DNA of 64,000 nt from Cucumis sativus. Its lineage: Eukaryota > Streptophyta > Magnoliopsida > Cucurbitales > Cucurbitaceae. The position numbers and the translations under genes were made by a program. The DNA is taken from assembly GCF_000004075.3 (NCBI RefSeq), contig NC_026660.2, forward strand, positions 27,841,498-27,905,497. Reading direction: 5' to 3'. Below the pieces are notes generated by a model. It saw nothing but the letters and a program-made list of their open reading frames with translations, had not been told where the DNA came from and did no database searches. Positions 17,774 to 48,908 of this stretch are shown one piece after another. Positions within the stretch are counted from its first letter, which is position 1. Every line of letters starts with the position of its first letter.

Positions 17774-17776
<3 letters not shown>

Positions 17777-17809
<33 letters not shown>
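17777..17809. repeat. Poly-T tract
   Basis: About 33 T in a row. This could be the poly(A) tail of a reverse-strand retroposed sequence, but I see no recognisable element body beside it. Confidence 0.8.
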
Positions 17810-17811
<2 letters not shown>

Positions 17812-19208: not shown

Positions 19209-20506
19209 ATGGGGACGCTCTGCTATTTGAGACATTCTTCTCCCTTATTCTCCACCTTGATTGTATTTCTTCTTCTCAGAGGTAAATTGAACCTTCTAAT
19301 TCCTTTTGTCCATTTGAATTCTGGTTAATTGCTTGTTTTTCACAATTTTACGGTATCTTGTCTGAATTGGTTTAATCGGGTTACTCTGTTTTTTTTAAAA
19401 AAATAATCTTTCTGTGTTTTACAGAGGTTTCCAGTGCTACATTCACGTTCGTTAACAAGTGTGATTACACCGTCTGGCCGGGAATTCTCGCCAGTTCCGG
19501 CAGCCCGAAACTCGAAACCACCGGTTTCGAGCTCAAAGCGGGCAATTCTCGCTCTTTGCAAGCTTCAACCGGCTGGTCCGGTCGGTTCTGGGGCCGAACC
19601 AATTGCAAATTTGACGACTCCGGGCGTGGCAACTGCAACACCGGCGACTGCGGCTCTGGAGAGATAGAGTGCAACGGCGCCGGTGCTACGCCTCCAGCAA
19701 CGTTAGCCGAATTCACACTCGGGTCTGGTTCGCAGGATTTCTACGACGTTAGCCTAGTCGATGGCTACAATCTGCCGATGATCGTGGAGGGAACCGGGGG
19801 GTCCGGCACGTGCGCGTCAACCGGCTGCATTACGGACCTGAACCAACTTTGCCCGGCTGAGCTGAAGGCGGAGGCTGGCGGCGCGTGTAAAAGTGCTTGT
19901 GAAGCATTTGAGACGCCGGAGTACTGCTGCAGCGGGGAGTACAACTCGCCGGCGACTTGCAAGCCGTCAATGTACTCACAAATGTTTAAATCGGCGTGCC
20001 CTAAATCGTACAGTTACGCGTATGATGACGCCACCAGCACATTCACTTGCAACGGAGCGGACTACACCATCACATTTTGCCCTTCTTCCCCAAGGTAACA
20101 CTAAATCAATACTCTATAATCCTCCAATTTAATATTTTTAGTAAGTTCCTAAACTTTCACTTGTTTTTTTTAATGATAAATTTGTATACTATCGTACATA
20201 AAATCAAAGTTTTATTATCTGGAAAGTTCTACAAATATTGAAAATATATGTTTATTTGAAAATGACAGTCGAAAGTCTTCAAAAGATTCGCCATCAACCA
20301 TACCGGAGTCAGATACAGAGACCGAGTCAGAACCAGGGTCAGAATCAGAACCGGGAACAATACAAGGAGCAGCTTTGAGTAGTTCTTGGCTTGCAAATAT
20401 GGCAATTGGAGGAGACTCATCCATTGGAACAAAACCAAGCTTGGCATTTCAATATGCTTCAACTTTGATATTCAATTTGGTTCTATGTTTGGGTCTTCTC
20501 TCATAG
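19209..20506 (+). CDS. Thaumatin-like protein (PR-5 family) 2, three exons, 326 aa
   Basis: Exons are 19209-19281, 19425-20094 and 20269-20506, and the coding length is 981 bases. Exon 1 encodes the signal peptide (MGTLCYLRHSSPLFSTLIVF...). The mature protein begins near ATFTFVNKCDYTVWPGIL and carries the signature GRGNCNTGDCGSGEIEC, the acidic-cleft context (WGRT, LAEFTL, FYDVSLVDGYN) and CPSSP at the end of exon 2. Exon 3 encodes a Ser/Glu/Pro-rich linker with repeated ESEPGSE-like motifs, then a hydrophobic C-terminus (ASTLIFNLVLCLGLLS) typical of a GPI-anchor signal. The second intron sits at the same place and phase as that of the TLP at 10050, so the two are tandem paralogues. This copy has an extra intron after the signal peptide. 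Likely a cell-surface, wall-associated protein. Confidence 0.92.

Positions 20507-22868: not shown

Positions 22869-22870
<2 letters not shown>

Positions 22871-22908
<38 letters not shown>
22871..22908. repeat. Poly-T tract (~38 bases)
   Basis: An uninterrupted T run followed by short TA repeats (22923-22935). It may be the tail of a reverse-oriented retroposon. No element body was recognised. Confidence 0.8.
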
Positions 22909-22911
<3 letters not shown>

Positions 22912-23632
22912 GTAAAAAAACGTATATATATATATGTAAAAGAGAAATTAATTCTAAAACCAAAGGAACATGTTCTTCCTTTTTCAGTCATATCAATCAA
23001 TTTCCTCTCTTTTCATTTAGTCATATTCAATTTACCTTTTTATTTTGTTTTCTCCTCATGATATTTAATTTTCCAAAATATCTTACTGTATTAATATTCC
23101 TCAATTTCATTCCATCAGAATATTTGATATTTCCGAAAATTCTTTTCTATTTTTTTTTCAAATCATTGGCCGTGTTTGTGTATATTTGTAGATGCATTTA
23201 GTTATTTCTTTCTCCTTTTTTAGTAGAAATTTATATCTCTTAGTTAATTAGCATAATGATGGTGTTTTCATAATTTTAATCCAATCACTTTAATACAAGA
23301 GAAAACGCAAATGCAAGGTGTACATAAAAAATTAGAATGAAGGTGTATAAAATAAAGGAAATACAAAAGTTTGCAAAAAAAAAAAAACTGATATCTATAG
23401 AAGAAATGATTATAGAAGTCTCACATAACGCAACCTAGCTTGTCAGAATATAGTAATAGTTGTTCGCAAGATGTCAATTCGAATATGAGATAAGACACCA
23501 ATTAACATCCTAATAAGTGACAAACCAATATTTTGGTTTTACAAATTGTTCAACTTACCAAAAATAAAATTAACCATTTCAAATTATACATAATAATCAA
23601 CTCAAAATATAGATGCATTTATTCCAAATTGA

Positions 23633-29546: not shown

Positions 29547-30221
29547 TTTTTGCATCTCTTCCCGCCACCGCAATGCGACTGAACAACCGATAAACTTCGG
29601 TCACCATGTGATGCCAAGGGATGGTTAGATCCGACGGTTGAGAACGAAACGACGTCGGATTGGAAACAAGTATTCCATTTTGTGCACTTCACCCTTTTCA
29701 TAATATTCCACCTAACAAATTTTACATTATATTCTTTTTTACTCCATTTTTTAAAACAATTTAATCCTTTTTGTATGTAAGTTAAGAGTGAAATCAATGG
29801 ACATTGAGTATAATTGAATTCAAACCTTCCACTTTCATAATGAAATCTCACACTTTGCCCAAATAACGTTGGCTTGGTTAAACAAAAATTATAATCTCTA
29901 GGTTGAATTAACTTTTTCAACTATGAGAAAAATATAATACTCTTCAAACTTTTAATTTTCTCTTCAATATATCAACTTTTCAATTTTATTAGTCTTCTAC
30001 TAGAGTTTATAATACAATTAGGTTTTTGTTTGACATAAAATTTAATTCATGTGGCAGTTAATCTTTTATAACAAATTTTAGTTCCTTTTCTATTGAATAT
30101 ACAATTTGAATTCGTGTAGTTCCTTTTCCATTGAAATTTCTTTAATAAAGTTTATTATTATTATTAATTAACCAATTTTGATATAAAAATAACTTGATTT
30201 ATTTCAAAAAATATATAAAAA
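29547..30221. other. Promoter side of the calmodulin methyltransferase gene
   Basis: About 100 bases of GC-richer sequence directly upstream of the start codon give way to AT-rich DNA. No other gene is seen. The open frame 29507-29920 on the minus strand has no recognisable similarity. Confidence 0.4.
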
Positions 30222-30690
30222 ATAAAATTAAACATAAGAAGTAAAAAAAAAAACTAAAATTAAACAAAATAGCAGCTTGTAGTATCCAGTCAGTGTTAGG
30301 TATTATTAACAATAAAAGTAGTTAGACTGTTATTTTCTGTTGTATTAGTTGTATTAGTTAATCTGTTATTTTCGGTTGTATTAGTTAATCTGTTAGACAG
30401 TTATCAGTTGCTGCCAAGCATCTATAAATACCAAGCTTGGTTGATGTAAATATCTTCGACATTATGAAATAAAGAATTTACTACAGTCAGTAAATCTTTT
30501 CTCCCAAATTCTGCTTCTTCTGTTATGGTATCAGAGCAGGTGGTCTAGGGAGGTCCTGTGTTCAAGCCCCTGCATTGTTGTTTCCTCCCTAATTAAACAT
30601 AAAATTAAACATAAGAAGTAAAAAAAAAAACTAAAATTAAACAAAATAGCAGCTTGTAGTATCCAGTCAGTGTTAAGTATTAGTAGTTAC
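30222..30690 (+). mobile_element. Copia/TRIM-like LTR remnant with duplicated flank
   Basis: An LTR-like segment starts at about 30294 (TGTTAGGTATTA) and has a TATA-like CTATAAATA (30422-30430). It runs to a primer-binding site TGGTATCAGAGC (about 30526-30537), complementary to initiator methionine tRNA, then a short leader ending at about 30595. The AT-rich flank at 30222-30293, plus the first bases of the LTR, occurs again at 30601-30690, where the LTR copy has a 12-base deletion. This looks like partial tandem duplication of flank plus LTR and not a normal two-LTR element. There is no coding sequence. Confidence 0.65.
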
Positions 30691-30811: not shown

Positions 30812-33800
30812 CTAATAATGGACAGGACAATCTTTAACAATGACTCCTGGTGCCGTAGGGCAGGAAGCCAACGGACAAGCATCTGAATCTCCACCCCACC
30901 ATTGAAGAGATATATGTTGCATTCCCAAACAAAGGTACAGAAGCACACCCATGAATGCCAATCCAGCATCCAGAGCTCCTGATAGCAAATAGTTATGGCG
31001 GCTCCACCACCCACGGTAATGCCGGTAAGCAACAAAGCCTGAAGCAAATCCTATTACAATCCAGCTCGTGTAGTTTACTGCAGTGGCTGGTGGCATATTC
31101 ACCACTGCACCGAGGAGCACCGGCATGGTGATCAGCTTGATCCAATTCTTGTCTGGGAAGGCCTTGTGTGCTAGCCAAACCAAGAGAGGAGACACTGCTC
31201 CAGCTAAGAAAAACCAGTTTAATGATCCATATTGGCCTTGATCCCCGAAGATTCGACGAGGACCAACAAGGCCCCAAATGACTGAGGCGTCGTAGAATAC
31301 ATGGTCACCGGGACATGTCCATGGACTGCCTGCTGGAAGCTTGGCTCGGTCGCATATGTTGGGGATTGTTGCCATAAGCCACCAGGCTGTTCCCAAGTGC
31401 GTCACTGCCGATACCACTGTTCCAACGACCTGATAAAAGGGTTAACGAGAAGGGTGAATGTTAAAACAACTCACAGTTCAGTTTTTTGGGTTTTGGTTCA
31501 TTTCGATCCTAAATGTTAGTGTAATATACTTACAACTTTAATTCCTTTTGGTCCTTATCTTCAAAATGTCTATTTTGTGACTCTACCTTTAAAAAGTAAA
31601 CCGTTGAAAGTATAACTAGAGTCGAGAGTACATGAAGTAGTATTCTACAACAAGAGAACTGAATATTGGTGTCACAGTTCTAGTGCTAACCTGTGCAATG
31701 AACATTTCTCTCGGAGGAATTTTCATGTAATGCCCGAGTTTGAAATCTTGCAAAAATGTGATTGCCTGCTTCATACTTATGTATCCATAAACTTTAAAGC
31801 ACATATTAGCAACAGGGTAGCCAGGATACAAGTAACCGATAATGAATTCAGTGATTACGTTTAATGACGGTGCCTGTTGATCAATAAATTGAAAGTTTAA
31901 ACAACAATGTTACCAGCCTTTTGTATAGCTCATAAACGCATAGAAATTTAGTAGATATCATGGAATGATACCTGATTTGTCAAAGCAGTGATAACTCCAA
32001 CCGGGAGAGTGAAAAACATCGCAAGACCACAAGCAATCAGAACGCCCCACCATGGCAATTGGAGCTGGTTGTTATAGTACTCGCATATGAAAATTGTGAC
32101 TGAAATGTTAACTACAAGAATGCACATGAACCACGATTCAGGAACTTGATCATACTTTCTCATCAACTTTGTATGTACATCCATCAGCTTCTCTTGCAAA
32201 GCTGACCTGCTTAATCTCCATATGTCTCTGCACTGACAAGAACAAATCAGCACGAATCAAATCGAAACCCATTCCCTGTTAGAAGTTCTTGAATTTCGCT
32301 CTAGGGAATGTGATCAAAATCAAGTTTGAAAGATCGCCAACCTCCCATGGAAGAGTAAGACGTGAACAATAGTGGCAGCAAGACAGGCAAAGTTGACACC
32401 ATAGTAGAGAGCAAGGAAGGTACTAAAGCGGAGTGGACCTTCGCGGTTATAAGCATCCACATCAAGACGGAAGTTGGGGTCAATTATAGCAGAGATATTG
32501 TAGTTTTGGCCAGCGGAGGTAAATAATCCATCAGAAAAAATGGGGAATGTCTTAGCATTAAAGAGATCAAGCCAATATGCTAACGGGGTCCCAAGGTAAG
32601 TGACAATGGCAAAACCAGCAGCAACGTTAACAGTGGCAAACCATGGACTGGCAAGAGGGCTCCCAAGATAAGCTGATATGGTGGACCAATCGAAACCAAA
32701 GGCACCGATGCCTAAGCCACGCAGCCCTGAGCCAAGCTGTTGGGCGATTATGGATGTGGGGAACACCCAACAGAGCCAGGACATTGATGTCAACATGGGA
32801 AAGAGATAGCCAGGGAAAATGTAATAACCAAAGCTGCAAGTGAAGGCAACGACAAAGAATTGGTTTCTGCTTAATTTCCCTTTTGGTCTCTCTTCTTTTT
32901 CGTGCAATGCCCTACAATTTCACGGCGATAGCGAACGGTTCGATTACAAGAAAACCAAAGTGCACAATGGGTACCGTTAAATCGCCATTAAACAAAAACT
33001 TAACAAAACGAAACTGGCATTACAAGTATTCATAGTTCAAACACTGCTAATTACAAATTGGAAGCCTAATATATATTATCAATACAACCATCATATTTAA
33101 TCATGCATTCATATTCTTATCAAGGACTAACCTGAAGAGGGATACTTGAACCAGATTTTGTGGCCACCACATGGCGGCCGGCTCAACCAAATATCGCCGG
33201 AAAATACCAGCCCAGCCAAAACCAAGCACTTGAGTGGTCAGCACGACGAGCAACGCTAGAAAGAAGGTGAGTTCCTTCTTGTAGAAGATCTTGATTGCAC
33301 TGACGACATGAATTGCATAGACAGTAGAGGCGCCGGAGTTTGCAAAGATGGTGATGAGGACATGTTCTTTCTGATTGAATGGTCCTGGATTGAGAGTGAA
33401 CTTCCATTTCTTCCCTTCGAAGAATACTTTGTTAGTTAGGGCGGAAGCCAAGAAATGGCCAATGGGAACCACCGCTATTTGGGCGGAAATTGAGGTAACT
33501 GGAAGAGGCTCTTTCCGATAGTAGAAGAATTGATTGAGGAAGGACAGAAGCATACACGCGATTATCCCCAAAATCCACGTCCTGAAAGTGAACGTGGGAA
33601 GTGACGTATCGTCGGTGACCGGAACTGTAAGGGCAACTTGCTCCACAGGAGAATTTTCGACGGGATATGGATCCTCCGACGATGAAGAAACAGAGGTTGA
33701 CCCCGACGCACGCCATTGAGTGATCTGTTTTTCCTGTACTGCACACGAGGAAAAAGGTCAAGTTAGGCCTTTGGAGAAAATTAACAGACCAAAGCAGAAA

Positions 33801-33851
33801 CGAATTGGAGGTCATACTTAGAGGATCCAAAATTTCATGGTCGTCGGCCAT
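30812..33851 (-). CDS. Oligopeptide transporter, OPT family, six exons, 755 aa
   Basis: Exons in transcript order: 33851-33818, 33738-33132, 32911-32342, 32227-31972, 31873-31691, 31429-30812; total 2268 bases, with GT-AG introns throughout. The start is ATG 33851 ([11 protein letters not shown]). A longer in-frame extension has only a TTG start. The family motifs NPG (about residue 127) and KIPPR (about 540-544) are present, with numerous hydrophobic segments between about residues 62 and 735 and a C-terminal cysteine-containing tail ([14 protein letters not shown]). Plant OPTs are proton-coupled carriers of small peptides, glutathione or metal chelates at the plasma membrane; the substrate cannot be read from sequence. 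It looks intact and of normal family length. A dead paralogue of its last exon lies at 24886-25346. Confidence 0.94.
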
Positions 33852-35276
33852 CTTCTCCTCCCCGCCAAAATCATGCAGGTTCAATCGAAGCTCGTGGTGC
33901 TCTTGTAGCCACGAAATCGACTCTGCTTCGATATGGCTGCGTTGACCAAACAATATTGAATGAGAGAGAAGTATCGAAGATAGGAGATGATAAAGGGTTT
34001 GTTGGAGGTCCGGTTTTGATCAGAAGAAGAAGTTGCAATGGTTGATGTCACCGGCGAGGGAGGAAATGGCCATAAGGCGTTTCCCACCGGCGATGGTGCC
34101 TCCGTGCCAACTCCGATGGGAATTTGAAAAGAACGGGACCCGCCAATCCTTTTTAATGAATATTTACGGATTTGTGGTTTAATTCAGAGAACGAGAAATA
34201 GAGAATTTTCAAACGAATTATAATTATCATAAATTTGTTTGGGGGACAATTATTTCTAAAGTTTCAAACATAGGCCTACTCTAAGTCAATTCAATTCGCA
34301 TTCATAAAGAAAAAAGGAAAAGGGAAGTAGATATTTTCTTGTGTTTTTCTTCTTTTTCTTTTTTCATATTTAAAGTGGTTTTAAGAAAGAAATAGTAATT
34401 CAAATGCATGATAGATTATAGAAATTTGTAAATATCAAAAACTGCTGGAAAACCTTTATAAAATATATAAAATATAGTATATTTTCATATTTCACCCACG
34501 CTAATAAATTGAGTCTTATATCTGTAGTCTACTATTTATAGTTTATGAAATTTTACTATATTTTATCCACTTTTTTATTTGAAAATGAATCATACAAATT
34601 TATCTCATGAGAGAATTTAGTTTACCTATTGTAAAAATATATCACCTTTTCAACGTATTTTTTTCCTTCATTTATGGATGTCAAAAATAATAAAAATATC
34701 CATAAAAACAGTTTGTATATATGATAGTTGTAAATATAATATTTATATTAATTAAGTATATAGTAACATTTTAAATAAAATTGTAAATATAGAAAATTTT
34801 GTTAAAATCAATCTATTATTGATAGACTAAAAGTTTCGCTCATAAGACCATTTTGCAAGCTCTAAACCCTAATCACACTATGCATTAAGCATAATTAAAA
34901 TGCGATATAAGGTTTGATGATTTTTTTAAAATTTAATTGGTGGTAAAAGTTGGAATATTGCCTGCTTGTCCCAACTCAAACCCAAGTTTTTTTAAAAAAT
35001 ATTTTATTATTTAACCTTTCTTTTTTTTGTTAATACTAACACTCACAAAAACGTTTTGAAATTTACATATCACATTTTACAACAAAAAGAAAAAGTGAGA
35101 AAAAGAAATTAAACAATTTCACATAATGTTTAAAAAACTAATATCTTAAATGAAAATGATAGAAAAAAAAAAGATAAGAAAAAAAGGTAAGATTATTACA
35201 TATATAACTAACGTAACTAAAATGAAGTATTTATAAAACTAATATACCATATTTATTTGTTAGGTCTTTTAACGGG
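33852..35276. other. Intergenic between OPT gene and transposon island
   Basis: The first 250 bases are GC-richer and probably hold the OPT promoter and leader. The rest is AT-rich with no recognisable gene. Frames overlapping 33881-34087 are not supported as coding. Confidence 0.45.
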
Positions 35277-35999
35277 ATGTACAAAAGTTGGATAAACATT
35301 AGGGATAGATTTTCACTTGAATACAAAGAAGAAGTTTTTCAACTTTTAGAGGCTGCAAAACATCACACAAATAATTATGAAAAAATAAGATATCCATGCA
35401 ATAAATGTATGAATTCAAACTAGGACTTCTTAAAATGTGTGAGGCGACATTTATTAACCACTGGAATAGTCTCATCTTATATAAACTGGGCGTATCATGG
35501 AGAACCATTTACCTTGAACATAGGTATACAAACATTTAGTGAATGAACGAGTAGTAGTTATCCAATATATAATTGATGAAGAAACTACCAATAACCCAAT
35601 AGTTGATGGAGGAACAAGCAGTAACCAGTTAATGAAGAAAATGAAATCTTGAATATGTTGTATGATTTACAAGTTGGTATTGAACAAGTAGAATAGAGTG
35701 AGGAATATCTAGATTTAGAAGAAGACATAACAAACAACGTATTTAATGAGTTATTAAATCAAGCAAGTTGTCAGCTATACCCTAGGTGTTCTGAATTTTC
35801 GTCACTAAATTTTTTGGTTAAAATGATGCACGTCAAAGTTTTCAATGGTTGGAGCAACAAGTCATTCGATATGATGTTAGAGTTAATAAAACGTGTGTTT
35901 CCAATGTGTGGAACTAACATCCCTAGTTCGTTCTATGAAGTCAAACGACAATTGTGTGATTTGGAATTGTGTGATCTTAACGATCCAACACTGAATTAA
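35277..35999 (+). pseudogene. CACTA (En/Spm) transposase remnant
   Basis: From ATG 35277 the frame encodes a transposase-associated domain (MYKSWINIRDRFSLEY, then YPCNKCMN), hits a TAG at 35421-35423, and continues with RRHLLTTGIVSSY and NWAYHGEPF. After another degraded stretch, 35740-35999 encodes the typical TNP2-type segment FNELLNQASCQLYPRCSEFS, then NGWSNKSFDMMLELIKRVFP and SSFYEVKRQLCDL. Stops and small indels separate these blocks. The catalytic domain and the terminal inverted repeats are absent, so it is immobile. It abuts a plant-mobile-domain fragment at about 36030. Confidence 0.8.
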
Positions 36000-36030
36000 G
36001 CTGCTGAATTTCATTCTGGTACCTCGGGCC

Positions 36031-36303
36031 CAGGAGCTACGACAAGCCTGTTGCGCAAAAGCAAAAGAATGCATCACGCTCCAAATCTACTCAGAACCCA
36101 AATGACTCGAAGGTCCAATCTCGAGAATGGTCCTCCAGAGAAAACATGTTATTTACAGAACTTGGCATAAGGGACGATCTGAAGGATGCGACATATTTAG
36201 CCGCTTTTTTATCTTGTTGGTTGTGCCTCTTTGTGTTTTCGAAGAAGGGATCATTTTTTCGCCCTAAAGGGTTTAAGATTGCAAGCTCAATGGCTTACGG
36301 GTC
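36031..36303 (+). pseudogene. Plant mobile domain (PMD) fragment
   Basis: The plus strand encodes SYDKPVAQKQKNASRSKSTQ, then SREWSSRENMLFTELGIRDD and ATYLAAFLSCWLCLFVF, followed by GSFFRPKGFKIASSMAYG. This is the conserved start of PMD proteins, a family of genes and transposon passengers. It is cut off at 36303, exactly where the Copia sequence begins. The matching C-terminal part of such a protein is found in every unit of the array at 40.7-46.9 kb. This is probably the other end of the same antisense frame of the Tat element, separated by the Copia insertion and a deletion. Identification is from memory of the family. Confidence 0.6.
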
Positions 36304-36391
36304 TGAGAAAAACTCATCATAGAATATAAGCAGCTGTTTCTAAAGCATATCCCCAAAAAGAATCTGACATCTGAGAAAAACTCATCATAGA
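36301..36391. repeat. 21-bp direct repeat marking the Copia truncation junction
   Basis: A 21-base segment beginning TCTGAGAAAAACTCATCATA occurs at about 36302-36322 and at about 36372-36392. The right-hand copy is inside the integrase frame; the left-hand copy sits at the junction to the PMD fragment and creates the stop. This is typical filler DNA from templated end-joining. Confidence 0.75.
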
Positions 36392-38248
36392 GCGAACCAT
36401 GTCTAACAAGGTCCGATTTCTTCTTTCTGATACACCGTTCTGTTGAGGTGTACTAGGTGCAGAGAGTTGTGACTGGATTCCATTTTCTATTAAATAGTCT
36501 CGGAATCGTAAGTCCATATACTCTCCACCTCGATCTGATCGAAGTATTTTTATTGTTTTACCTAATTCGTTTTCTACTTCAGCCTTATATTCTTTGAACT
36601 TTTCAAGACTATTAGACTTATGATGTATTAGGTAAATATGACCATACCTTGAATAATCATCAATGAAGCTAATGAAATATTCATATCCACCTCGAGCTTT
36701 GACATTCATTGGTCCACAAAGGTCCGAATGTACGAGCTCTAAGGGTCCTTTGGCTCTTAGACCTTTTCCAGTAAAAGATCTCTTGGTCATTTTTCCTTCA
36801 AGACAAGATTCACAAGGAGGTAAAGTATTATTTTCTAACTGACTTAGAAGCCCACTTTTAACTAATCTCCCAATCCTATTGAGATTTATGTGACCAAGTC
36901 TTAAGTGCCATAAATAGGCATTAGAAGAAACTTTTTGTCTTTTATTCTGAGTTTCAGCTGTTCTGAATATTTCAGTATTTAAGACAAAATTTGCTCTGGT
37001 TGGTCTTAACTTATATAAGTTGTCTTCAAGTATAGCAGAACAAACTAGAATACCTTTATAGAAAACGAACGCTTCATTAATTTCAAAAGATATTCTATAC
37101 ATTTGTTCCAAAATACAAGAGATAGATATTAAATTTCTTTTCATTTGAGGTACATATAAGACATTCTTAAGTATGACATATCTATCTCTAAAAAACAACT
37201 TTAAATCTCCCACTGCTGAAGCTGAGACCATCTCTCCTGTTCCAACCTTGAGAGTGATCTCGCCTTCTGAAAGCTTTTTCCAAGAACTATTTTCCTGAAA
37301 TGAGAAGCAAATATGGTTAGTGGCTCCTGAATCTAGTATCCAGGTACAATTTTCATATTCCACTAAACATGTTTCTACAACTAGTAAATCATATTTACCT
37401 TGTGTTTCCTTCTCTGCCTTTTTTTCTGCAAGGTATTTTGGGCAGTTTCTTAACCAGTGCCCGTTTTGGCCACAATGGTAACACTTACCTTTTTCTGCAC
37501 CTTTCTTACCCTTGTTCTGTTTGGGAGTCTTTCCCTTTCCCTTCTTTTTTATTTGAGCATTAGGTTTTGAGGGTCCAGCTTTGGTTTTAGAGGACGATCC
37601 TCTTATAAATTTTCTTTTTGTGGTAGCAACATTTGCTTCCACTTGTTTTCCTTTACCCATAGTAAGGTTTTGGAATCGCTGGAGTTCATTCAGAAGGGTT
37701 GTCAAGTTAAATTCTATCTTGTTCAAAGACGCATTCGTTTGGAATGGAATGAAGCTCTTCGGAAGAGACTCTAAGATAAAACTAACTTGATTAACCTCTT
37801 CGATGGGACCACCATTCACTTCAGCGATGTTGAAGTGCATCATCATGTCCAGAACATGTTCTCTAACAGAGGTCCCTTCCTTCATACGCTTAGTGTAAAT
37901 GTATTTGACTGCCTCGTGTCTTAAGGACCATTCTGGTTGCCCAAACATTCCCCTTAATGAATCCATAATCTCTTTAGCCGTGGCTAAGGATTCATGTTTC
38001 TTTGCCAATACATCAGACATGCTGGCAAGAATGTAGACACGGGCTTTTTCATTAGCTTTTATCCATCGATCATATGCATCCCGACTAGTTCGGTTAGCAT
38101 TAGAGGCAGGGTTTTGAGGACATTCCTCAGTTAAGACAAATCTTAAATCGTCAACCACTAGTATTGTGTTAAGATTTGATTTCCAAGCCGCATAATTATC
38201 GCCATTAAGTTTTTCGGAAGCTAAAAGTTGAACTATTGAGCTATTCAT
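36317..38248 (-). CDS. Copia Gag-Pol (gag, zinc knuckle, protease, integrase), truncated
   Basis: An open frame of about 643 codons from ATG 38248 (MNSSIVQLLASEKLNGDNYA). Order of domains: Copia gag (about residues 5-210), CCHC knuckle CYHCGQNGHWLRNC (about 260), aspartic protease motif WILDSGATNHIC (about 305), GAG-pre-integrase LWHLRLGHINLNRIG (about 445), and the integrase core with HSD, FIDDYSRYG and NGVSERRN, which supply the D, D and E residues. It ends abruptly after FWGYALETAAYIL, where duplicated filler DNA brings in a stop. No internal stop or frameshift is present, so the element is young or the frame is recent. It cannot transpose by itself without RT and RNase H. Confidence 0.9.
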   Translation of the reverse strand: MNSSIVQLLASEKLNGDNYAAWKSNLNTILVVDDLRFVLTEECPQNPASNANRTSRDAYDRWIKANEKARVYILASMSDVLAKKHESLATAKEIMDSLRGMFGQPEWSLRHEAVKYIYTKRMKEGTSVREHVLDMMMHFNIAEVNGGPIEEVNQVSFILESLPKSFIPFQTNASLNKIEFNLTTLLNELQRFQNLTMGKGKQVEANVATTKRKFIRGSSSKTKAGPSKPNAQIKKKGKGKTPKQNKGKKGAEKGKCYHCGQNGHWLRNCPKYLAEKKAEKETQGKYDLLVVETCLVEYENCTWILDSGATNHICFSFQENSSWKKLSEGEITLKVGTGEMVSASAVGDLKLFFRDRYVILKNVLYVPQMKRNLISISCILEQMYRISFEINEAFVFYKGILVCSAILEDNLYKLRPTRANFVLNTEIFRTAETQNKRQKVSSNAYLWHLRLGHINLNRIGRLVKSGLLSQLENNTLPPCESCLEGKMTKRSFTGKGLRAKGPLELVHSDLCGPMNVKARGGYEYFISFIDDYSRYGHIYLIHHKSNSLEKFKEYKAEVENELGKTIKILRSDRGGEYMDLRFRDYLIENGIQSQLSAPSTPQQNGVSERRNRTLLDMVRSMMSFSQMSDSFWGYALETAAYIL

Positions 38249-38260
38249 GCTGAAAAACAA

Positions 38261-40260
38261 ACATATTCTTTTTTAGGAAAAAACTATAATCATAAAAAAT
38301 ATCCAATCTAATTTAGCAATTACTAATAATGTACCCTTTCATTATTTGTATTTTGCAACAATATTTCAAAGGTTTAGAACAACCTTCTCCGAAGGGTAGT
38401 TGATTATTCCTCCTTTGAACCAAGACAATCTTGACTAGATGCTATCTCTAGAATAACTGCTTATTCTTTATAGCACTTAGTTATCGCTACTTTAGTCAAG
38501 AATATACTAACAACTTAGTAATTCTTGTAAGTGTTACCCACCATTTTCAGATTTCATAGATTAGAATCATTTATGAAAACTAATCTGAGAAAAACCTATC
38601 CAGATTTGGAGTTCGCGGTGTTCCGAATCCTATAATACAACCCTCCGAAGGGAACGTCGCTCCAGGGCAGACAAGCAGGCATATTATAGAAATCTCACGG
38701 TGCGACCTAATGGAAGAGACCGTGGGATGTGCTGCCACAAATCCCTCACCCACTTACTATGAACTACTTCCCCTATTCACCTTGATTTTGATCCATGCAA
38801 ACACTCTCCGAAGGGAGGCCGCTCCTATGCACGGCACAAAGCCCTGCATGGACCTCACGGTGTGAACTCTTAGGGACACTAGAGCTAAAATACATTATTT
38901 TTCTCTAGTTGAAGTGTTCTAAAGAAAAAAATAGGGTAATCCAAGCTTCAAGATTTATATTTAGGCTAACTTAAACAAATCTTAAGTCTAGATAAAACAT
39001 CCAAGTATAACCATTATACAGGATTTTAACCTATGATGTCTAGGTGAAAAACCATTTTTATTACCTCACACCTCTCACGAATGCTCATAAAACTAGGTTA
39101 ACTAGGCTCAAGAACTGATTACGATCTCCAGGTAGGAGGTGTTCCGTAAACCGTCAACTTAAGAACCTCCAACCTTAGTCATCTTATCTGACTTGTTGAC
39201 AAGATTGAACCAGGTGAGCCTTTTGTAACCAGTTTTACAAGATATCGACCTATTTCTATGAAAAATGGAAGATATGTTTAACCTAAGTGAGCATGCATTT
39301 AATCTTTATTATTGATTTTAAAAGTCTAATTTATTTTATAACACTTAAAAAAACTTTTAGACTTAATCAATCATTTTATCAATATATAAACTTATATAAA
39401 CAATCAATTAATATGGATTTTAATTTATTTAACTTTAATTAAATCATATTTAATTAAATTAAATCAAACAATAATTAATTAATTTGATTAAATCATATTT
39501 AATCAAGAATAACTTAATTAATTAAATATATTAATTAATTTCCATATTAATCAATTAACATGCATACAATACAATATAACCTTTATATCATACATTTTAA
39601 TGCATGAACATGTTAACCTATGGTGGGATTTTAAATCTATATGACATTCAAAATGCACATACAAATTTAAAGTAATTTAATCATACATCACATGCATAAA
39701 TAAAAAAAAACACCCTAAAATGGACTGATTTTTGGCTCCTAAATTAAGCTAAGTACTAAATTATTACATAATTAATTTGGTGTAGTACAGAACCACTCCC
39801 AAAAACTTCGAACCGGCTGAAAAACCAACTGAAACCGCTTGAACCGGCCCAAAAACCAAATTTATTGGCTTGAACCGGCCCACTTAACTAAACAGGCCCT
39901 GGCGCACACGGGTCGGACACAGGCGGGCGCGAGGGCGAAGGCGGGCGCGTGCGGGTCGCGAAGCGGGTCAAGGCGGGTTTTCGGGTCTGTGACCTTCTTT
40001 TCTTCATTTTTTTTCAATTCTCTCACCCGGTTGAACCAGTTACAGCCTAACTTCAACTCTAATGACTTTTTTTATTTTAAAAAAAAATTACAAACACTTT
40101 GCAACAATAAAAATAAGCCATTAACAAGGCTAATTACAATAATTAGAACAAAAACACTTAATCTAGAGCCAAAATCATAATATATCTATTTTAGTTCAAA
40201 CAAAAATTTATCTAATAAATATGAACCCACCACATGCAATTGGGTAAAAATGAAGCATGC
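38261..40260 (-). other. Long untranslated leader of the Copia element
   Basis: About 2 kb between the primer-binding site and gag without a conserved open frame. It has repeated short blocks (CTCCGAAGGGA near 38643 and 38807; TCTCACGGTG/CCTCACGGTG near 38693 and 38865), a very AT-rich part at 39300-39560 and a GC-rich patch at 39890-39990. A packaging or translational role is possible but not shown. Confidence 0.5.
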
Positions 40261-40272
40261 TCTGATACCATA

Positions 40273-40657
40273 TGATAGAACTAAGTCATGCACAGCGGAA
40301 AAAAATCGAATTTCGACCCTAATTGCCACAATTAACATGTAACCATAAACTAATCAAATTAGGGTTTTAAGAAATATTACCTTTGAAGCTTTCAAAAGGT
40401 TTGATATCTTCTTACCAATTCTAACCGAGACCACCACTAGTACTCAACTACTATCCTCTAGACAAAGAACCGAGTTGTGGGACCCAATTTTGTTGTAGAA
40501 AGTAATGGAGATAAAATGGGATTGAAAGTTTTTTTTTCTTTTGTTGAGATGATGAAAATGATAAAAGAGGCAAAAGTCCTTCAACATTTGAAAACACCTC
40601 TATTTATAACTTAATTACATGAAAAAATGCATGCAATTCATTTGCCAAATCTCAACA
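40273..40657 (-). repeat. Copia 5' LTR
   Basis: Bounded by TG at its minus-strand start (40657) and CA at its end (40273), and followed by the tRNA-iMet primer-binding site after two bases. A TATA-box-like TTATAAATAGAGG on the minus strand (about 40598-40610) fits an LTR promoter. No second LTR is in the window. Confidence 0.75.
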
Positions 40658-40710
40658 CCTTTTTTATAACATAGGAATCAATGCACAACGTAGTTTAATG
40701 TTTTTTTTTA

Positions 40711-41948
40711 CAAAACAAAATTAAGTATAAAACTTCTTGAGAAATTTATCGGTGATTGGGCCAATTCGTAATCCTTCTTGATCGATGATTTTGTATGCTC
40801 CAATTGTGAAAACTTTTTGACGATGTAGGGTCCGTCCCATTTATATGTGAATTTATTTCTCATATGTCTCGTCGTGATGATAGGTCTTCTTACTGCAAGC
40901 ACTAACTCACCAAGAAGGACATGGCGGAGCATAAAGGGGAGAGTGACAGCAGCAAAAGTGATCGTCATTGGAAAAGACCTTTGAAGAAAGGGAAGACATC
41001 AGGTGATGAATCTTGTGGAAGGGGCTCGAGTGCTATGGGAATTCCCGATGTCCCACCATTGCTTTGCATCTTTTCCTTCTTTAATACTTTTCTTTTACTG
41101 TTCATCTTCTTCGTGAGCGATTTATCTATTGCTTATTTCTGCAATCACCTTTGGACGATCATCTTGAAGGACTTATAGATATAGATAGTGATGAATCACT
41201 AACTGGTTCTCATATGACTGATACGGCCATTGAGAAAGTTGGTATTTCGAAGACACCAGCTGCAAAACCAGCCGAGATGATTTGTTGAGACAAGATGAAA
41301 GTGGATGGCAAAGACATCGAGAATCCTCCCTTCAGAGGAGGTGCCTGTCCTACAGTGCCTTCAACGAATGTTACATCTATGACTGAACTTAAAGTGAACC
41401 TTAAGCTGCCTATATACCATTTTTATAACATAAGGATCAAGTCATAACGTAGTTCAATGGTTTTTTTTCATGTGACTGAACTTAAAGTGAACCTTAAGTT
41501 GCCTACGTACCCTTTTTATAACATAGGGATCAAGTCATAACGTAGTTCAATGGTTTTTTTTTCATGTGACTGAGACTGAACTTAAAGTGAACCTTAAGTT
41601 GCCTACGTACCCTTTTTATAACATAGGGATCAAGTCATAACGTAGTTCAATAGTTTTTTTTTTTTTTCATGTGACTGAACTTAAAGTGAACTTTAAGCTT
41701 CATACGTACCCTTTTTATCACATATGGATCAAGTCATAACGTAGTTCAATATTTTTTTTCATGTGACTGAACTTAAAGTGAATATTAAGCTGCCTACGTA
41801 CCCTTTTTATAACAAAGGGATCAAGTCATAACGTAGTTCAATGATTTTTTTTCATGTGACTGAACTTAAAGTGAATCTTAAGTTGCCTACGTACCTTTTT
41901 TATAACATAGGAATCAAGTCACAACTAGTAGTTTAATGTTTTTTTTTA
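40711..41948. repeat. Array unit 1
   Basis: The minus-strand pol end is at about 40720-40918, the plus-strand PMD-like part at 40921-41370 and the six-copy subrepeat block at about 41381-41948. It differs from the others by AAGTATAAAAC where they have AAGCATAAAAC, and its last subrepeat carries the extra bases in CACAACTAGTAGTTT. It is next to the Copia LTR on its left. Confidence 0.9.
41381..41948. repeat. Subrepeat block: six ~93-bp units (representative copy)
   Basis: Each subrepeat begins near TGACTGAACTTAAAGTGAA and continues through CTACGTACC, TTTTTATAACATAGGGATCA, CATAACGTAGTTCAATG and an 8-13 base T run. One copy has an extra GACTGA. Subrepeats differ from each other at several sites, but position by position the blocks agree between the five large units, so the six-copy block was amplified as one piece. 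Equivalent blocks lie at about 42619, 43858, 45092 and 46328. Confidence 0.9.
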
Positions 41949-43184
41949 CAAAACAAAATTAAGCATAAAACTTCTTGAGAAATTTATCGGTGATTGGGCC
42001 AATTCGTAATCCTTCTTGATCGATGATTTTGTATGCTCCAATTGTGAAAACTTTTTGACGATGTAGGGTCCGTCCCATTTATATGTGAATTTATTTCTCA
42101 TATGTCTCGTCGTGATGATAGGTCTTCTTACTGCAAGCACTAACTCACCAAGAAGGACATGGCGGAGCATAAAGGGGAGAGTGACAGCAGCAAAAGTGAT
42201 CGTCATTGGAAAAGACCTTTGAAGAAAGGGAAGACATCAGGTGATGAATCTTGTGGAAGGGGCTCGAGTGCTATGGGAATTCCCGATGTCCCACCATTGC
42301 TTTGCATCTTTTCCTTCTTTAATACTTTTCTTTTACTGTTCATCTTCTTCGTGAGCGATTTATCTATTGCTTATTTCTGCAATCACCTTTGGACGATCAT
42401 CTTGAAGGACTTATAGATATAGATAGTGATGAATCACTAACTGGTTCTCATATGACTGATACGGCCATTGAGAAAGTTGGTATTTCGAAGACACCAGCTG
42501 CAAAACCAGCCGAGATGATTTGTTGAGACAAGATGAAAGTGGATGGCAAAGACATCGAGAATCCTCCCTTCAGAGGAGGTGCCTGTCCTACAGTGCCTTC
42601 AACGAATGTTACATCTATGACTGAACTTAAAGTGAACCTTAAGCTGCCTATATACCATTTTTATAACATAAGGATCAAGTCATAACGTAGTTCAATGGTT
42701 TTTTTTCATGTGACTGAACTTAAAGTGAACCTTAAGTTGCCTACGTACCCTTTTTATAACATAGGGATCAAGTCATAACGTAGTTCAATGGTTTTTTTTT
42801 CATGTGACTGAGACTGAACTTAAAGTGAACCTTAAGTTGCCTACGTACCCTTTTTATAACATAGGGATCAAGTCATAACGTAGTTCAATAGTTTTTTTTT
42901 TTTTTCATGTGACTGAACTTAAAGTGAACTTTAAGCTTCATACGTACCCTTTTTATCACATATGGATCAAGTCATAACGTAGTTCAATATTTTTTTTCAT
43001 GTGACTGAACTTAAAGTGAATATTAAGCTGCCTACGTACCCTTTTTATAACAAAGGGATCAAGTCATAACGTAGTTCAATGATTTTTTTTCATGTGACTG
43101 AACTTAAAGTGAATCTTAAGTTGCCTACGTACCTTTTTTATAACATAGGAATCAAGTCACAACGTAGTTTAATGTTTTTTTTTA
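41949..43184. repeat. Array unit 2
   Basis: Same layout: pol end on the minus strand, PMD-like frame from 42159, subrepeats at about 42619-43184. The short plus frame (85 codons) stops in the hydrophobic stretch, as in units 1, 4 and 5. Confidence 0.9.
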
Positions 43185-44422
43185 CAAAACAAAATTAAGC
43201 ATAAAACTTCTTGAGAAATTTATCGGTGATTGGGCCAATTCGTAATCCTTCTTGATCGATGATTTTGTATGCTCCAATTGTGAAAACTTTTTGACGATGT
43301 AGGGTCCGTCCCATTTATATGTGAATTTATTTCTCATATGTCTCGTCGTGATGATAGGTCTTCTTACTGGCAAGCACTAACTCACCAAGAAGGACATGGC
43401 GGAGCATAAAGGGGAGAGTGACAGCAGCAAAAGTGATCGTCATTGGAAAAGACCTTTGAAGAAAGGGAAGACATCAGGTGATGAATCTTGTGGAAGGGGC
43501 TCGAGTGCTATGGGAATTCCCGATGTCCCACCATTGCTTTGCATCTTTTCCTTCTTTAATACTTTTCTTTTACTGTTCATCTTTCTTCGTGAGCGATTTA
43601 TCTATTGCTTATTTCTGCAATCACCTTTGGACGATCATCTTGAAGGACTTATAGATATAGATAGTGATGAATCACTAACTGGTTCTCATATGACTGATAC
43701 GGCCATTGAGAAAGTTGGTATTTCGAAGACACCAGCTGCAAAACCAGCCGAGATGATTTGTTTGAGACAAGATGAAAGTGGATGGCAAAGACATCGAGAA
43801 TCCTCCCTTCAGAGGAGGTGCCTGTCCTACAGTGCCTTCAACGAATGTTACATCTATGACTGAACTTAAAGTGAACCTTAAGCTGCCTATATACCATTTT
43901 TATAACATAAGGATCAAGTCATAACGTAGTTCAATGGTTTTTTTTCATGTGACTGAACTTAAAGTGAACCTTAAGTTGCCTACGTACCCTTTTTATAACA
44001 TAGGGATCAAGTCATAACGTAGTTCAATGGTTTTTTTTTCATGTGACTGAGACTGAACTTAAAGTGAACCTTAAGTTGCCTACGTACCCTTTTTATAACA
44101 TAGGGATCAAGTCATAACGTAGTTCAATAGTTTTTTTTTTTTTCATGTGACTGAACTTAAAGTGAACTTTAAGCTTCATACGTACCCTTTTTATCACATA
44201 TGGATCAAGTCATAACGTAGTTCAATATTTTTTTTCATGTGACTGAACTTAAAGTGAATATTAAGCTGCCTACGTACCCTTTTTATAACAAAGGGATCAA
44301 GTCATAACGTAGTTCAATGATTTTTTTTCATGTGACTGAACTTAAAGTGAATCTTAAGTTGCCTACGTACCTTTTTTATAACATAGGAATCAAGTCACAA
44401 CGTAGTTTAATGTTTTTTTTTA
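43185..44422. repeat. Array unit 3 (longer plus-strand frame)
   Basis: Same layout, but with three single-base insertions relative to the other units: CTGGCAAGC (about 43368), ATCTTTCTTCG (about 43580) and GTTTGAGAC (about 43761). The second and third open the plus-strand frame from 85 to 155 codons (43396-43863); the first shortens the minus-strand frame. Confidence 0.9.
43396..43863 (+). pseudogene. PMD-like C-terminal reading frame in array unit 3, 155 aa
   Basis: Reads MAEHKGESDSSKSDRHWKRP, GRGSSAMGIPDVPPL, then a hydrophobic stretch from a probable unspliced or inserted segment, then SPLDDHLEGLIDIDSDESLT and EKVGISKTPAAKPAE. The start and end parts resemble the C-terminal region of PMD-type proteins common in plant genomes. 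The frame is antisense to the gypsy element that carries it. In the other four units single-base differences break it. Translation is unproven; it is more likely a captured, decaying passenger frame. Confidence 0.5.
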
Positions 44423-45656
44423 CAAAACAAAATTAAGCATAAAACTTCTTGAGAAATTTATCGGTGATTGGGCCAATTCGTAATCCTTCTTGATCGATGA
44501 TTTTGTATGCTCCAATTGTGAAAACTTTTTGACGATGTAGGGTCCGTCCCATTTATATGTGAATTTATTTCTCATATGTCTCGTCGTGATGATAGGTCTT
44601 CTTACTGCAAGCACTAACTCACCAAGAAGGACATGGCGGAGCATAAAGGGGAGAGTGACAGCAGCAAAAGTGATCGTCATTGGAAAAGACCTTTGAAGAA
44701 AGGGAAGACATCAGGTGATGAATCTTGTGGAAGGGGCTCGAGTGCTATGGGAATTCCCGATGTCCCACCATTGCTTTGCATCTTTTCCTTCTTTAATACT
44801 TTTCTTTTACTGTTCATCTTCTTCGTGAGCGATTTATCTATTGCTTATTTCTGCAATCACCTTTGGACGATCATCTTGAAGGACTTATAGATATAGATAG
44901 TGATGAATCACTAACTGGTTCTCATATGACTGATACGGCCATTGAGAAAGTTGGTATTTCGAAGACACCAGCTGCAAAACCAGCCGAGATGATTTGTTGA
45001 GACAAGATGAAAGTGGATGGCAAAGACATCGAGAATCCTCCCTTCAGAGGAGGTGCCTGTCCTACAGTGCCTTCAACGAATGTTACATCTATGACTGAAC
45101 TTAAAGTGAACCTTAAGCTGCCTATATACCATTTTTATAACATAAGGATCAAGTCATAACGTAGTTCAATGGTTTTTTTTCATGTGACTGAACTTAAAGT
45201 GAACCTTAAGTTGCCTACGTACCCTTTTTATAACATAGGGATCAAGTCATAACGTAGTTCAATGGTTTTTTTTTCATGTGACTGAGACTGAACTTAAAGT
45301 GAACCTTAAGTTGCCTACGTACCCTTTTTATAACATAGGGATCAAGTCATAACGTAGTTCAATAGTTTTTTTTTTTTCATGTGACTGAACTTAAAGTGAA
45401 CTTTAAGCTTCATACGTACCCTTTTTATCACATATGGATCAAGTCATAACGTAGTTCAATATTTTTTTTCATGTGACTGAACTTAAAGTGAATATTAAGC
45501 TGCCTACGTACCCTTTTTATAACAAAGGGATCAAGTCATAACGTAGTTCAATGATTTTTTTTCATGTGACTGAACTTAAAGTGAATCTTAAGTTGCCTAC
45601 GTACCTTTTTTATAACATAGGAATCAAGTCACAACGTAGTTTAATGTTTTTTTTTA
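44423..45656. repeat. Array unit 4
   Basis: Same layout; PMD-like frame from 44633, subrepeats at about 45092-45656. Differences from units 2 and 5 are confined mainly to the lengths of T runs in the subrepeats. Confidence 0.9.
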
Positions 45657-46891
45657 CAAAACAAAATTAAGCATAAAACTTCTTGAGAAATTTATCGGTG
45701 ATTGGGCCAATTCGTAATCCTTCTTGATCGATGATTTTGTATGCTCCAATTGTGAAAACTTTTTGACGATGTAGGGTCCGTCCCATTTATATGTGAATTT
45801 ATTTCTCATATGTCTCGTCGTGATGATAGGTCTTCTTACTGCAAGCACTAACTCACCAAGAAGGACATGGCGGAGCATAAAGGGGAGAGTGACAGCAGCA
45901 AAAGTGATCGTCATTGGAAAAGACCTTTGAAGAAAGGGAAGACATCAGGTGATGAATCTTGTGGAAGGGGCTCGAGTGCTATGGGAATTCCCGATGTCCC
46001 ACCATTGCTTTGCATCTTTTCCTTCTTTAATACTTTTCTTTTACTGTTCATCTTCTTCGTGAGCGATTTATCTATTGCTTATTTCTGCAATCACCTTTGG
46101 ACGATCATCTTGAAGGACTTATAGATATAGATAGTGATGAATCACTAACTGGTTCTCATATGACTGATACGGCCATTGAGAAAGTTGGTATTTCGAAGAC
46201 ACCAGCTGCAAAACCAGCCGAGATGATTTGTTGAGACAAGATGAAAGTGGATGGCAAAGACATCGAGAATCCTCCCTTCAGAGGAGGTGCCTGTCCTACA
46301 GTGCCTTCAACGAATGTTACATCTATGACTGAACTTAAAGTGAACCTTAAGCTGCCTATATACCATTTTTATAACATAAGGATCAAGTCATAACGTAGTT
46401 CAATGGTTTTTTTTTCATGTGACTGAACTTAAAGTGAACCTTAAGTTGCCTACGTACCCTTTTTATAACATAGGGATCAAGTCATAACGTAGTTCAATGG
46501 TTTTTTTTCATGTGACTGAGACTGAACTTAAAGTGAACCTTAAGTTGCCTACGTACCCTTTTTATAACATAGGGATCAAGTCATAACGTAGTTCAATAGT
46601 TTTTTTTTTTTTCATGTGACTGAACTTAAAGTGAACTTTAAGCTTCATACGTACCCTTTTTATCACATATGGATCAAGTCATAACGTAGTTCAATTTTTT
46701 TTTTCATGTGACTGAACTTAAAGTGAATATTAAGCTGCCTACGTACCCTTTTTATAACAAAGGGATCAAGTCATAACGTAGTTCAATGATTTTTTTTCAT
46801 GTGACTGAACTTAAAGTGAATCTTAAGTTGCCTACGTACCTTTTTTATAACATAGGAATCAAGTCACAACGTAGTTTAATGTTTTTTTTTA
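45657..46891. repeat. Array unit 5
   Basis: Same layout; PMD-like frame from 45867, subrepeats at about 46328-46891. Its subrepeat block runs directly into the element body on the right. Confidence 0.9.
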
Positions 46892-46901
46892 CAAAACAAA
46901 A

Positions 46902-47504
46902 TTAAGCATAAAACTTCTTGAGAAATTTATCGGTGATTGGGCCAATTCGTAATCCTTCTTGATCGATGATTTTGTATGCTCCAATTGTGAAAACTTTCAA
47001 CGAATATTTCACGCTTTTAAGCTCAGTGCGAGTTGTGAAGTCATAACCCGCATTTGTCATCAATTTATATGCTTTTGGGTCAAATCCCTCAGTCATTCGT
47101 CTTTTTGGAAAGAATGCCTTTACGTTTTTTTTCTCAAATCTTTTTCTTAGGTTGTCGATCTTCTTCGTATACGGCTTGGAATACAAAGAGAAAGTTTGAG
47201 CAAGTCCACCATATTGAGTTTTGATGGAGTTTGCAATCATCTCCTCCAATTGCTTGACAGACAGAGATGCAATTGAAGTTGAATTTTGTGGTTGACTTTC
47301 TTGCACAATTGTCTTCCCTTTGTTAGCATTCTTGACAGTATGTGTGTGACTCCATTCAGCAGCGTCACGACTCTTAATATGATTCTTTAGCGATTCAATC
47401 TCGTAGTCTTTCTCTTCAAGTGCCTTCACAAGCATGTTGACCTGCTTTTCAAGCTCTGTCATTCTATTTTCGTTTGTATCCACGCCAGTCAACATAATTG
47501 ACAT
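46902..47504 (-). pseudogene. Chimeric gypsy gag-pol frame, 200 codons
   Basis: One open frame made of three separated parts of a Ty3/gypsy polyprotein. First is the start of gag (MTELEKQVNMLVKALEEKDY, then SVKQLEEMIANSIKTQYGGL and FSLYSKPYTKKIDNLR). Next is a middle piece before RT (FEKKNVKAFFPKRRMTEGFD, PKAYKLMTNAGYDF). Last is the end of pol (VFTIGAYKIIDQEGLRIGPI ending KFYA). The core of gag, protease, RT, RNase H and most of integrase are missing, yet both junctions keep the frame. It is a non-autonomous deletion derivative. The sequence resembles the Tat-like gypsy family I know from cucurbits. Confidence 0.8.
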
Positions 47505-47811
47505 TATAAAAGATGAGGTACCTCCCCATTTGGGTGTTTAGAAGATGTGTTTCTGAATCACAGAATTTTCTTTAATTACAATTCCACCTTTTAGTAGACT
47601 GAAATTTTGTTCCCAAATATTCTTTGCGACTTTGACGGGTGGCATATCTTCAGATGAATGAAATCTCCTTGAGCGGCTATGAGTATTTGGTCGCTTACTG
47701 ATGTCGCCTAGAGCTTTGAAAGTGTTTCCTTAAAATGTCATGCTTTCTTTCGAGATGTTCTTTAAAAGAGAGAGATAAAAGGTAGAGATAATCCTACTGG
47801 GCGCGTCAAAA
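47505..47811 (-). mobile_element. Gypsy gag leader region and primer-binding site
   Basis: The minus strand encodes a gag-like N-terminal part (ALGDISKRPNTHSR, then MPPVKVAKNIWEQ and GGIVIKENSVI). It is in-frame interrupted by a stop at about 47538, then shifts into the 200-codon frame. At 47790-47810 the minus strand reads TTTGACGCGCCCAGTAGGA, in the position and of the kind expected of a gypsy primer-binding site directly after the LTR. Confidence 0.65.
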
Positions 47812-48412
47812 TGTTCACACGAGATTTCGAAAAAATGTAATTCACAAAATTGAACTTTGATATATTGATGAATATTATAAATACAATATCTAATATTTAG
47901 ACTTTTGATGTTTTCTCTCGAATACAAGTTAACAACTTAAGGCTTCTCGATCTTCGATCTTTAGAATGTTGTAGTTGCAAGTCGATTTGAACTTCGATCT
48001 TCTGAAATCTAAAAAAAATTAATCTTCAAGTCTTCAATCTTTCAGAAGATATTGATCTCGAGGTTGATATAGATTTACACGTCTTGAGAACTTGTAGAAG
48101 TTTGAATATTCAATTCTTCTTTCAATCCAAGATCTTGGATGACAAATGTCTCTATTTATAGAGAAATTTCATGAGTTTTAGGTGGACTTGAACCCATTTG
48201 TTTGTTGAACTCGGACTTGAACTCATTTGTTTGTTGGACTTGGACTTAAACCTATTTGTTTGTTGGACTTGGACTTGAGTTCATTTGTTTATTGGATCTA
48301 AATTGGATTTGGTTGAATACACATATCCAAAAATCCAATAAAAAAATAATTATCACAATATTTGGTGTGATGATGTGGTAAAATTTAATTGACTAAAATT
48401 TCATACTCTAAC
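47812..48412 (-). repeat. Gypsy (Tat-like) LTR
   Basis: About 600 bases. The minus-strand end is ...TGTGAACA at 47812. The start is at about 48412 (GTTAGAGTATGAAATTTTAG, the expected initial T being part of a mutated edge). A TATA motif CTATAAATAGAG (minus strand, about 48149-48162) fits an LTR promoter. It contains a four-copy minisatellite at 48183-48294. The partner LTR is not in the window; CACTA and Copia sequence lie where it would be. Confidence 0.7.
48183..48294. repeat. ~28-bp minisatellite inside the gypsy LTR
   Basis: About four imperfect copies of a unit like GGACTTGAACTCATTTGTTT plus GTTGGACTT. It lies upstream of the TATA motif in the element's orientation, in the region where LTR enhancers usually lie. 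Confidence 0.7.
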
Positions 48413-48908
48413 GGTCATGTTTCTTTAAATTTTGAAAAAACAAGAACAAAATAACAAAAGCAACTATATGTTTCTTTATCTAAAGAAGAGGGAGAAAAAG
48501 CAACAAAAACATTACAATACCTGAGATCGGAAGCTGAATATACAAATCATCAAATGTGTTCAAAGAAAGGAAAAAAGAAATGGTTAATAAATGCAAGGGC
48601 ATGGACAAAGTTAATTTCAATTAAATAAGTTTCCTGCAATCAATCTCTATTAAAAATAACAATAAATAAATAAGGTGTCAGAATAGAGCCAAAGAAAAAT
48701 GAAGCAATACAAATATGGTCTCACACTCTATTGGTTAACATTATAATATGAAGTTTTAAAAAGGGGTATGGCTTAGCTTAATTTTGAATTGACTTAATTT
48801 GATGAACGATTGTGTAATAAATATTATACCTTTCTTTTTCACGTCTCAAGCACTGTCCAGCAAAGTTGATTAAATTATCAAAATCCCCAATTAACACCAG
48901 AATGAGAT
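48413..48908. other. Short intergenic stretch between gypsy LTR and methyltransferase gene
   Basis: AT-rich; it probably includes the 3' untranslated region of the RNA methyltransferase gene. No gene is seen. Confidence 0.45.

Follow-up and report, generated by a model that had tools for sequence, protein, structure and literature searches.

In Lathyrus sativus, the accessible text of Vondrak et al. (2019, PMC7004042) describes arrays of the FabTR-58 subrepeat that are interlaced with Ogre sequence at fixed intervals in numerous reads, and it places array expansion mainly in primary constrictions. For maize, the parts of Sharma et al. (2013, PMC3648361) drawn on here describe CRM1TR units of ∼700 to 820 bp with 1 to 4 internal repeats of ∼100 nucleotides (nt) and propose illegitimate recombination followed by gene conversion for CRM1TR and CRM4TR. 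Retand/Tat elements are described, in the sections of Vicient (2025, PMC11963269) used here, as having antisense open reading frames (ORFs) and tandem arrays between pol and the 3′ long terminal repeat (LTR). Here, we describe a tandem array in Cucumis sativus, at ∼27.88 Mb on the 31.1-Mb chromosome C6 (∼90% along), in which ∼1.24-kb units of a Tat-like Ty3/gypsy element are still attached to that element, in one orientation, on both sides, and which probably arose by duplication in place. All coordinates are positions in the window, that is, the whole 64,000-nt stretch analyzed (C6:27841498-27905497; assembly of 226.6 Mb in 88 contigs). The genome similarity searches scored the best candidates only; counts of relatives (given L numbers below) are thus lower bounds, and statements of absence are limited accordingly.

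Self-comparison and Tandem Repeats Finder (TRF) bore out the head-to-tail array of ∼1.24-kb units with six ∼93-bp subrepeats each that had been proposed in a preliminary description of this DNA. The array spans 40657/40658 to 46997; its offsets are 1234 to 1238 bp and its identities 99.4 to 99.6% (self-BLAST of the window). The five units described earlier are all present, each with a single block of six subrepeats; with units cut at the unit-unit junction, the full composition is a 256-bp partial unit at the start, 4 whole units, and a fifth unit that lacks its last ∼97 bp. Diverged subrepeats in fixed order inside near-identical multimers make this a two-level higher-order repeat, as previously stated. 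It is not a satellite, a term that implies long arrays or high copy number and that was too strong for five copies spanning 6.3 kb at one locus. No Rfam matches were found in 40600-48500.

The units are far more similar to each other than the element is to its relatives. Alignment rows were cut at 40657, and row 1 thus starts with the partial edge unit. Over ∼1232 aligned bases, rows 2, 3, and 4 show zero mutual substitutions; row 5 carries a single one, within a T-run, and the three of row 1 all fall in the edge piece. Rows differ by 0 to 4 substitutions per ∼1232 bp, and the remaining differences are one- or two-base length changes. Best outside matches reach 82% for the antisense segment (BLAST; 83 to 86% over ungapped columns in seven relatives), 82% for gag plus LTR (best 40 of 579 candidates), and 92% for the pol end (best 40 of 100 candidates). 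This contrast points to rearrangement of genomic DNA within a fossil and not to an element that is active. Rates of 1.3e-8 and 7e-9 per site per year were used for dating. The single substitution in the 6104-bp array interior would give a point estimate of 13,000 to 23,000 years, with a one-sided 95% upper bound of 60,000 to 111,000 years (star approximation), and at the same rates the 14 to 18% divergence from relatives would correspond to ∼6 to 15 million years per branch, including time before insertion. The array is either much younger than its lineage or very recently homogenized.

Each unit is collinear with relatives in the same genome and reads, on the minus strand, from the pol end through the subrepeats into part of an antisense ORF; these relatives have gag, reverse transcriptase (RT), and integrase, which agrees with the earlier assignment of the unit to a Tat element. 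At unit-unit junction J (45859), a position in pol abuts a position in the antisense ORF; in relatives, these two positions are ∼1.6 to 1.7 kb from each other, and homology at the junction amounts to about one base. A deletion, D3, lies at 46317-46327 between the antisense ORF and the subrepeats and comprises ∼0.8 to 0.85 kb in five relatives. Both junctions were searched genome-wide as 30-mers with up to three mismatches and no indels. J matched at 4 places (the J of unit C was missed due to an extra base) and D3 at 5 places, all at the array locus, and under these settings neither was found elsewhere in the assembly. Likewise, no kilobase units were detected in the pol-3′ region of other copies, no two outside places lying within 5 kb of each other in the pol-end search (best 40 of 100 candidates; rarer cases may escape).

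The six subrepeats of unit E are 83.7 to 94.6% identical (mean, 88.6%), compared to >99% for the units, and the inner level is therefore older than the outer one. Six distinct relatives that were queried (L043, L044, L045, L047, L051, and L066) have one subrepeat each; four others (L046, L052, L053, and L054) gave no subrepeat match over 70 bp and are outside this count, and the antisense segments of L047 and L048 are identical. L047 and L048 lie on C5, at ∼8.09 and ∼8.84 Mb, and repeat loci at 7.79 and 8.54 Mb recur at the same distance of ∼753 kb, which suggests that a large segment was duplicated, either in the genome or during assembly. L049 and L050, which belong to a more distant subfamily (∼80%), have eight subrepeats each, so subrepeat growth may have happened more than once. 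These two elements also carry several different tandem arrays (L049, 1190-5155; L050, 1539-4527), with periods in L049 of 113 bp (×10), 157 bp (×5.4), and 91 bp (×8).

The relative L043 has RT before integrase, which is the Ty3/gypsy order (RVT_1, 5092-5571; RT_RNaseH, 5886-6395; rve, 6742-7611), and three antisense ORFs past the pol end (8392-8928, 8944-9342, and 9533-9877). Remnants in the window lie in matching order, and the window copy itself has lost the RT, RNase H, and integrase domains. A second RNase H domain is a hallmark of Tat elements. At L043:5886-6395, RNase_H (E value, 0.0015) and RVT_3 (E value, 0.0021) both scored below the curated cut-off. Archaeal RNase H is named among the Ogre domains in the accessible text of Vondrak et al. 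(2019, PMC7004042), and the available portion of Neumann (2019) gives a plant mobile domain in an extra ORF of 57% of Ogre elements. This domain scored below the cut-off in L043:9533-9877 (E value, 4e-5; 23.4 versus 34.9 bits) and was not detected in either of the two pieces of the window that were tested. Domain order and antisense region thus suggest a Tat-like Ty3/gypsy parent, consistent with the earlier assignment, at a resolution that does not separate Tat, Ogre, and Retand.

At its right end, the array continues into a post-gag piece, the N-terminal part of gag, and the 5′ LTR of the same element (Table 1); continuity with gag and LTR on this side had been described before. The post-gag piece is 82 to 88% identical to L043, L044, L045, L046, L052, and L053 near the breakpoints, which are two deletions, D1 and D2. 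Both preserve the frame of a 200-amino-acid (aa) ORF at 46902-47504, which we read as chance; no alignment across D1 was obtained in other places (gag-plus-LTR search, best 40 of 579 candidates). D2 removes ∼97 bp of pol that the inner units retain and cuts a unit, so it came after the first duplication. The LTR contains 29-bp repeats (48183-48296) that are present in several relatives too, and no second LTR copy was found left of the array within the window.

Attachment to the parent had been noted for this side only. To the left lies a second remnant of the parent, 83 to 86% identical to sequence beyond the antisense-ORF segment in six of the seven antisense-ORF places fetched (L014, L015, L016, L017, L018, and L020); the seventh, L019, gave no match. 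Between this remnant and the array is a 4.3-kb fragment of a copia element, both ends of which are breakpoints. On the left, homology of the copia copies begins at 36323, next to a 22-bp duplication that we read as filler templated during end-joining repair. On the right, matches to 39 other places cease at 40660, past which all eight copia copies compared continue together for at least 1.49 kb, while a ninth, L042, ends earlier. Array homology starts at 40657, giving a 4-bp overlap (40657-40660). A natural copia end at 40657, with simple insertion into a subrepeat, was considered and rejected, since copia copies run past that point. The copia coding part (36330-37300) is 98 to 100% identical to the 39 other places scored (best 40 of 276 candidates), and the right part is ∼95 to 98% identical to other places, indicating a young family, which has many copies. 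Either an insertion cut by deletions on both sides or a fragment captured at a break could account for this structure, and the breakpoint nature of the joint with the array alters a later event, not the array. The copia fragment, the two deletions behind the gag fusion, and the contrast in likeness between units and parent had all been missed in the preliminary description.

TABLE 1 Features of the array and its flanks in the window
Feature	Position	Strand	Basis or remark
Parent remnant, antisense-ORF region nearer the lost 3′ LTR	35999-36304	+	Order and orientation as in relatives
22-bp filler, Tat/copia joint	36302-36323	.	Exact copy of copia 36370-36391, 68 bp away
copia internal fragment (leader, gag, start of integrase)	36323-40660	-	Pfam gag_2, gag_pre-integrs, rve
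Partial edge unit (subrepeat tail, pol end)	40658-40913	-	4-bp overlap with copia; 3 substitutions versus sisters
Unit A (antisense-ORF segment, six subrepeats, pol end)	40914-42151	-	TRF, self-comparison, alignment, relatives
Subrepeat block, unit A	41380-41947	-	TRF
Unit B	42152-43388	-	TRF, self-comparison, alignment, relatives
Subrepeat block, unit B	42618-43183	-	TRF
Unit C	43389-44625	-	TRF, self-comparison, alignment, relatives
Subrepeat block, unit C	43857-44421	-	TRF
Unit D, ending at junction J	44626-45859	-	J placed against relatives
Subrepeat block, unit D	45092-45655	-	TRF
Unit E, pol-end segment short by ∼97 bp (D2)	45860-46996	-	Self-comparison, relatives
Subrepeat block, unit E (6 × ∼93 bp)	46326-46890	-	TRF
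Post-gag piece	46997-47148	-	Between D2 (46994-46996) and D1 (47144-47148)
N-terminal gag part	47144-47504	-	In-frame fusion across D1 and D2 to pol end
5′ LTR of parent	47815-48408	-	Inner edge by eye; outer edge (∼48408) is the end of several copies' homology

Further to the left, Pfam detected an OPT transporter domain in an ORF at 30812-31417. We assume that further ORFs up to 33953 belong to the same gene (30812-33953, minus strand), the 5′ end of which would face the transposon cluster. A 91-bp direct repeat is also present (30215-30305 and 30592-30682; 96.7% identical), and a fragment of another repeat, 85 to 86% identical to two places on C7, occupies 35205-35964, 34 bp from the Tat remnant.

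The history that we favor, with a probability of about three in four, is tandem duplication in place of an old, decaying Tat-like insertion through an end-joining-like junction, followed by unequal exchange or conversion. The Ty3/gypsy insertion would have lost most of its coding DNA by deletions at short homologies, a single ancestral subrepeat in its pol-3′ region would have grown to six, and D3 would have brought the subrepeats beside a section of the antisense ORF. This composite stretch may then have been duplicated head to tail through J, with about one base of homology, as end joining gives, and unequal exchange or gene conversion could have turned two copies into five homogenized units. 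D2 later cut the right-hand unit. At the other end, further Tat DNA would have been lost in at least one repair event, with the copia fragment left in place.

Unequal-exchange models predict an excess of substitutions at array edges, and such an excess is seen in the edge piece (P = 0.0002, or 0.004 if an adjacent pair is one event; post hoc). Several points weigh against the favored history. All three edge substitutions are found no more than 70 bp from the copia joint, and repair errors there explain the excess as well as exchange models do. Near-identity could reflect ongoing homogenization of an older array, in which case “recent” dates the last exchange and not necessarily the birth. The insertion is not directly datable, since a single parent LTR was found, and the divergence from relatives includes time before insertion. 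Finally, a single assembly underlies both the copy number and the homopolymer lengths.

This last point leads to an alternative that we consider unlikely, namely, that the true unit number is lower or higher because units were expanded or collapsed when long noisy reads were assembled. Units are near-identical and differ mostly in homopolymer length, and unit C has three private one-base insertions, a pattern to be expected if short reads cannot be placed during polishing. These insertions are possibly unpolished sequencing errors: none is present in the four sister units, and the two in alignable sequence are absent from seven aligned relatives. They alone open a 155-aa antisense ORF (43396-43863), so that the amplified block, described earlier as pol end, antisense frame, and subrepeats, is collinear with relatives as claimed but has this frame open in unit C only. 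We rejected the ORF as a conserved gene, since it depends on insertions without sister counterpart and since Pfam yielded no match for it or for the other antisense pieces in the window, and we rejected unit C as the ancestral state, since relatives show the opposite at two alignable sites. An assembly artefact is opposed by the different variants that the units carry, by the joining of both flanks to parts of one element, and, if the assembly is cucumber 9930 v3, by a PacBio subread N50 of 10.8 kb (PMC6582320, as given in the text available), which exceeds the 6.3-kb array.

Very unlikely, in our view, is the excision of one unit as an extrachromosomal circle that was amplified by rolling-circle replication and returned by homology. 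Such a circle would produce identical units at once, and extrachromosomal circular DNA is a published proposal for satellites (PMC2543021) that is also named in Sharma et al. (2013, PMC3648361), judging from the portions of both papers used here; it has left no direct trace at this locus, however, and the flanking parent segments have kept their original order, for which simple duplication in place is already a sufficient explanation. That the 1.24-kb repeat was made during reverse transcription, by template switching between co-packaged RNAs, and inserted ready-made is highly improbable: the cited portion of Vondrak et al. (2019, PMC7004042) gives this as a hypothesis of Macas et al. for short 3′ subrepeats, and L049 and L050, of a related subfamily, carry subrepeat arrays, but the units are 0 to 1 substitutions apart outside the edge versus 82 to 92% identity for the best outside matches, the unit junction was found nowhere else in the 30-mer searches with up to three mismatches, and D2 cut a unit after duplication.

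We put forward a bolder claim tentatively and would not yet favor it: this may be a higher-order repeat less than ∼100,000 years from its birth, on a gene-bearing distal arm, for which DNA repair within a dead element, not a living one, supplied the seed. In that case, unit number may still vary among cucumber accessions, and the transition from one copy to an array could be followed directly. By the time most satellites are studied, their parents have been erased. In the cucumber array, the parent remains attached on both sides, breakpoints can be placed against relatives, and a cutting relation gives a partial order of events. The locus separates two processes that are often conflated, namely, subrepeat growth, which is older, and amplification of the kilobase unit, apparently much later and in genomic DNA. 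It also suggests that a Tat copy may suffice even when dead, with no need for transposition, and that such events can occur outside centromeric regions.

Literature searches returned no description of this locus, which does not show that none exists. The claim that such attached intermediates are rarely visible was overstated, given the FabTR-58 interlacing and CRM1TR units in the portions of Vondrak et al. (2019) and Sharma et al. (2013) used here. As described there, FabTR-58 resembles the cucumber array in having several short subrepeat arrays in one orientation with Tat/Ogre sequence between them at fixed intervals. It differs in coming from numerous reads of an Ogre-rich genome, with long arrays mainly in primary constrictions, whereas the cucumber array is one locus in a small genome, ∼90% along its chromosome, with breakpoints placed against relatives. 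CRM1TR and CRM4TR, in the same limited view, likewise consist of ∼700- to 1370-bp tandem units from one Ty3/gypsy element at one or two loci, with other retrotransposons inserted in the arrays; they derive from an LTR-untranslated-region segment of a centromeric retrotransposon (CRM), are pericentromeric, and have many more units. The cucumber unit, in contrast, combines a Tat-like pol end, subrepeats, and antisense ORF and contains no LTR. The 3′ tandem repeats of Retand/Tat elements, as far as the source sections describe them, match the lower level of the cucumber array only, and the upper level would be a later genomic event. The array is thus of a known kind, to which it adds a low-copy, distal-arm example with the parent on both sides and a partly readable order of events.

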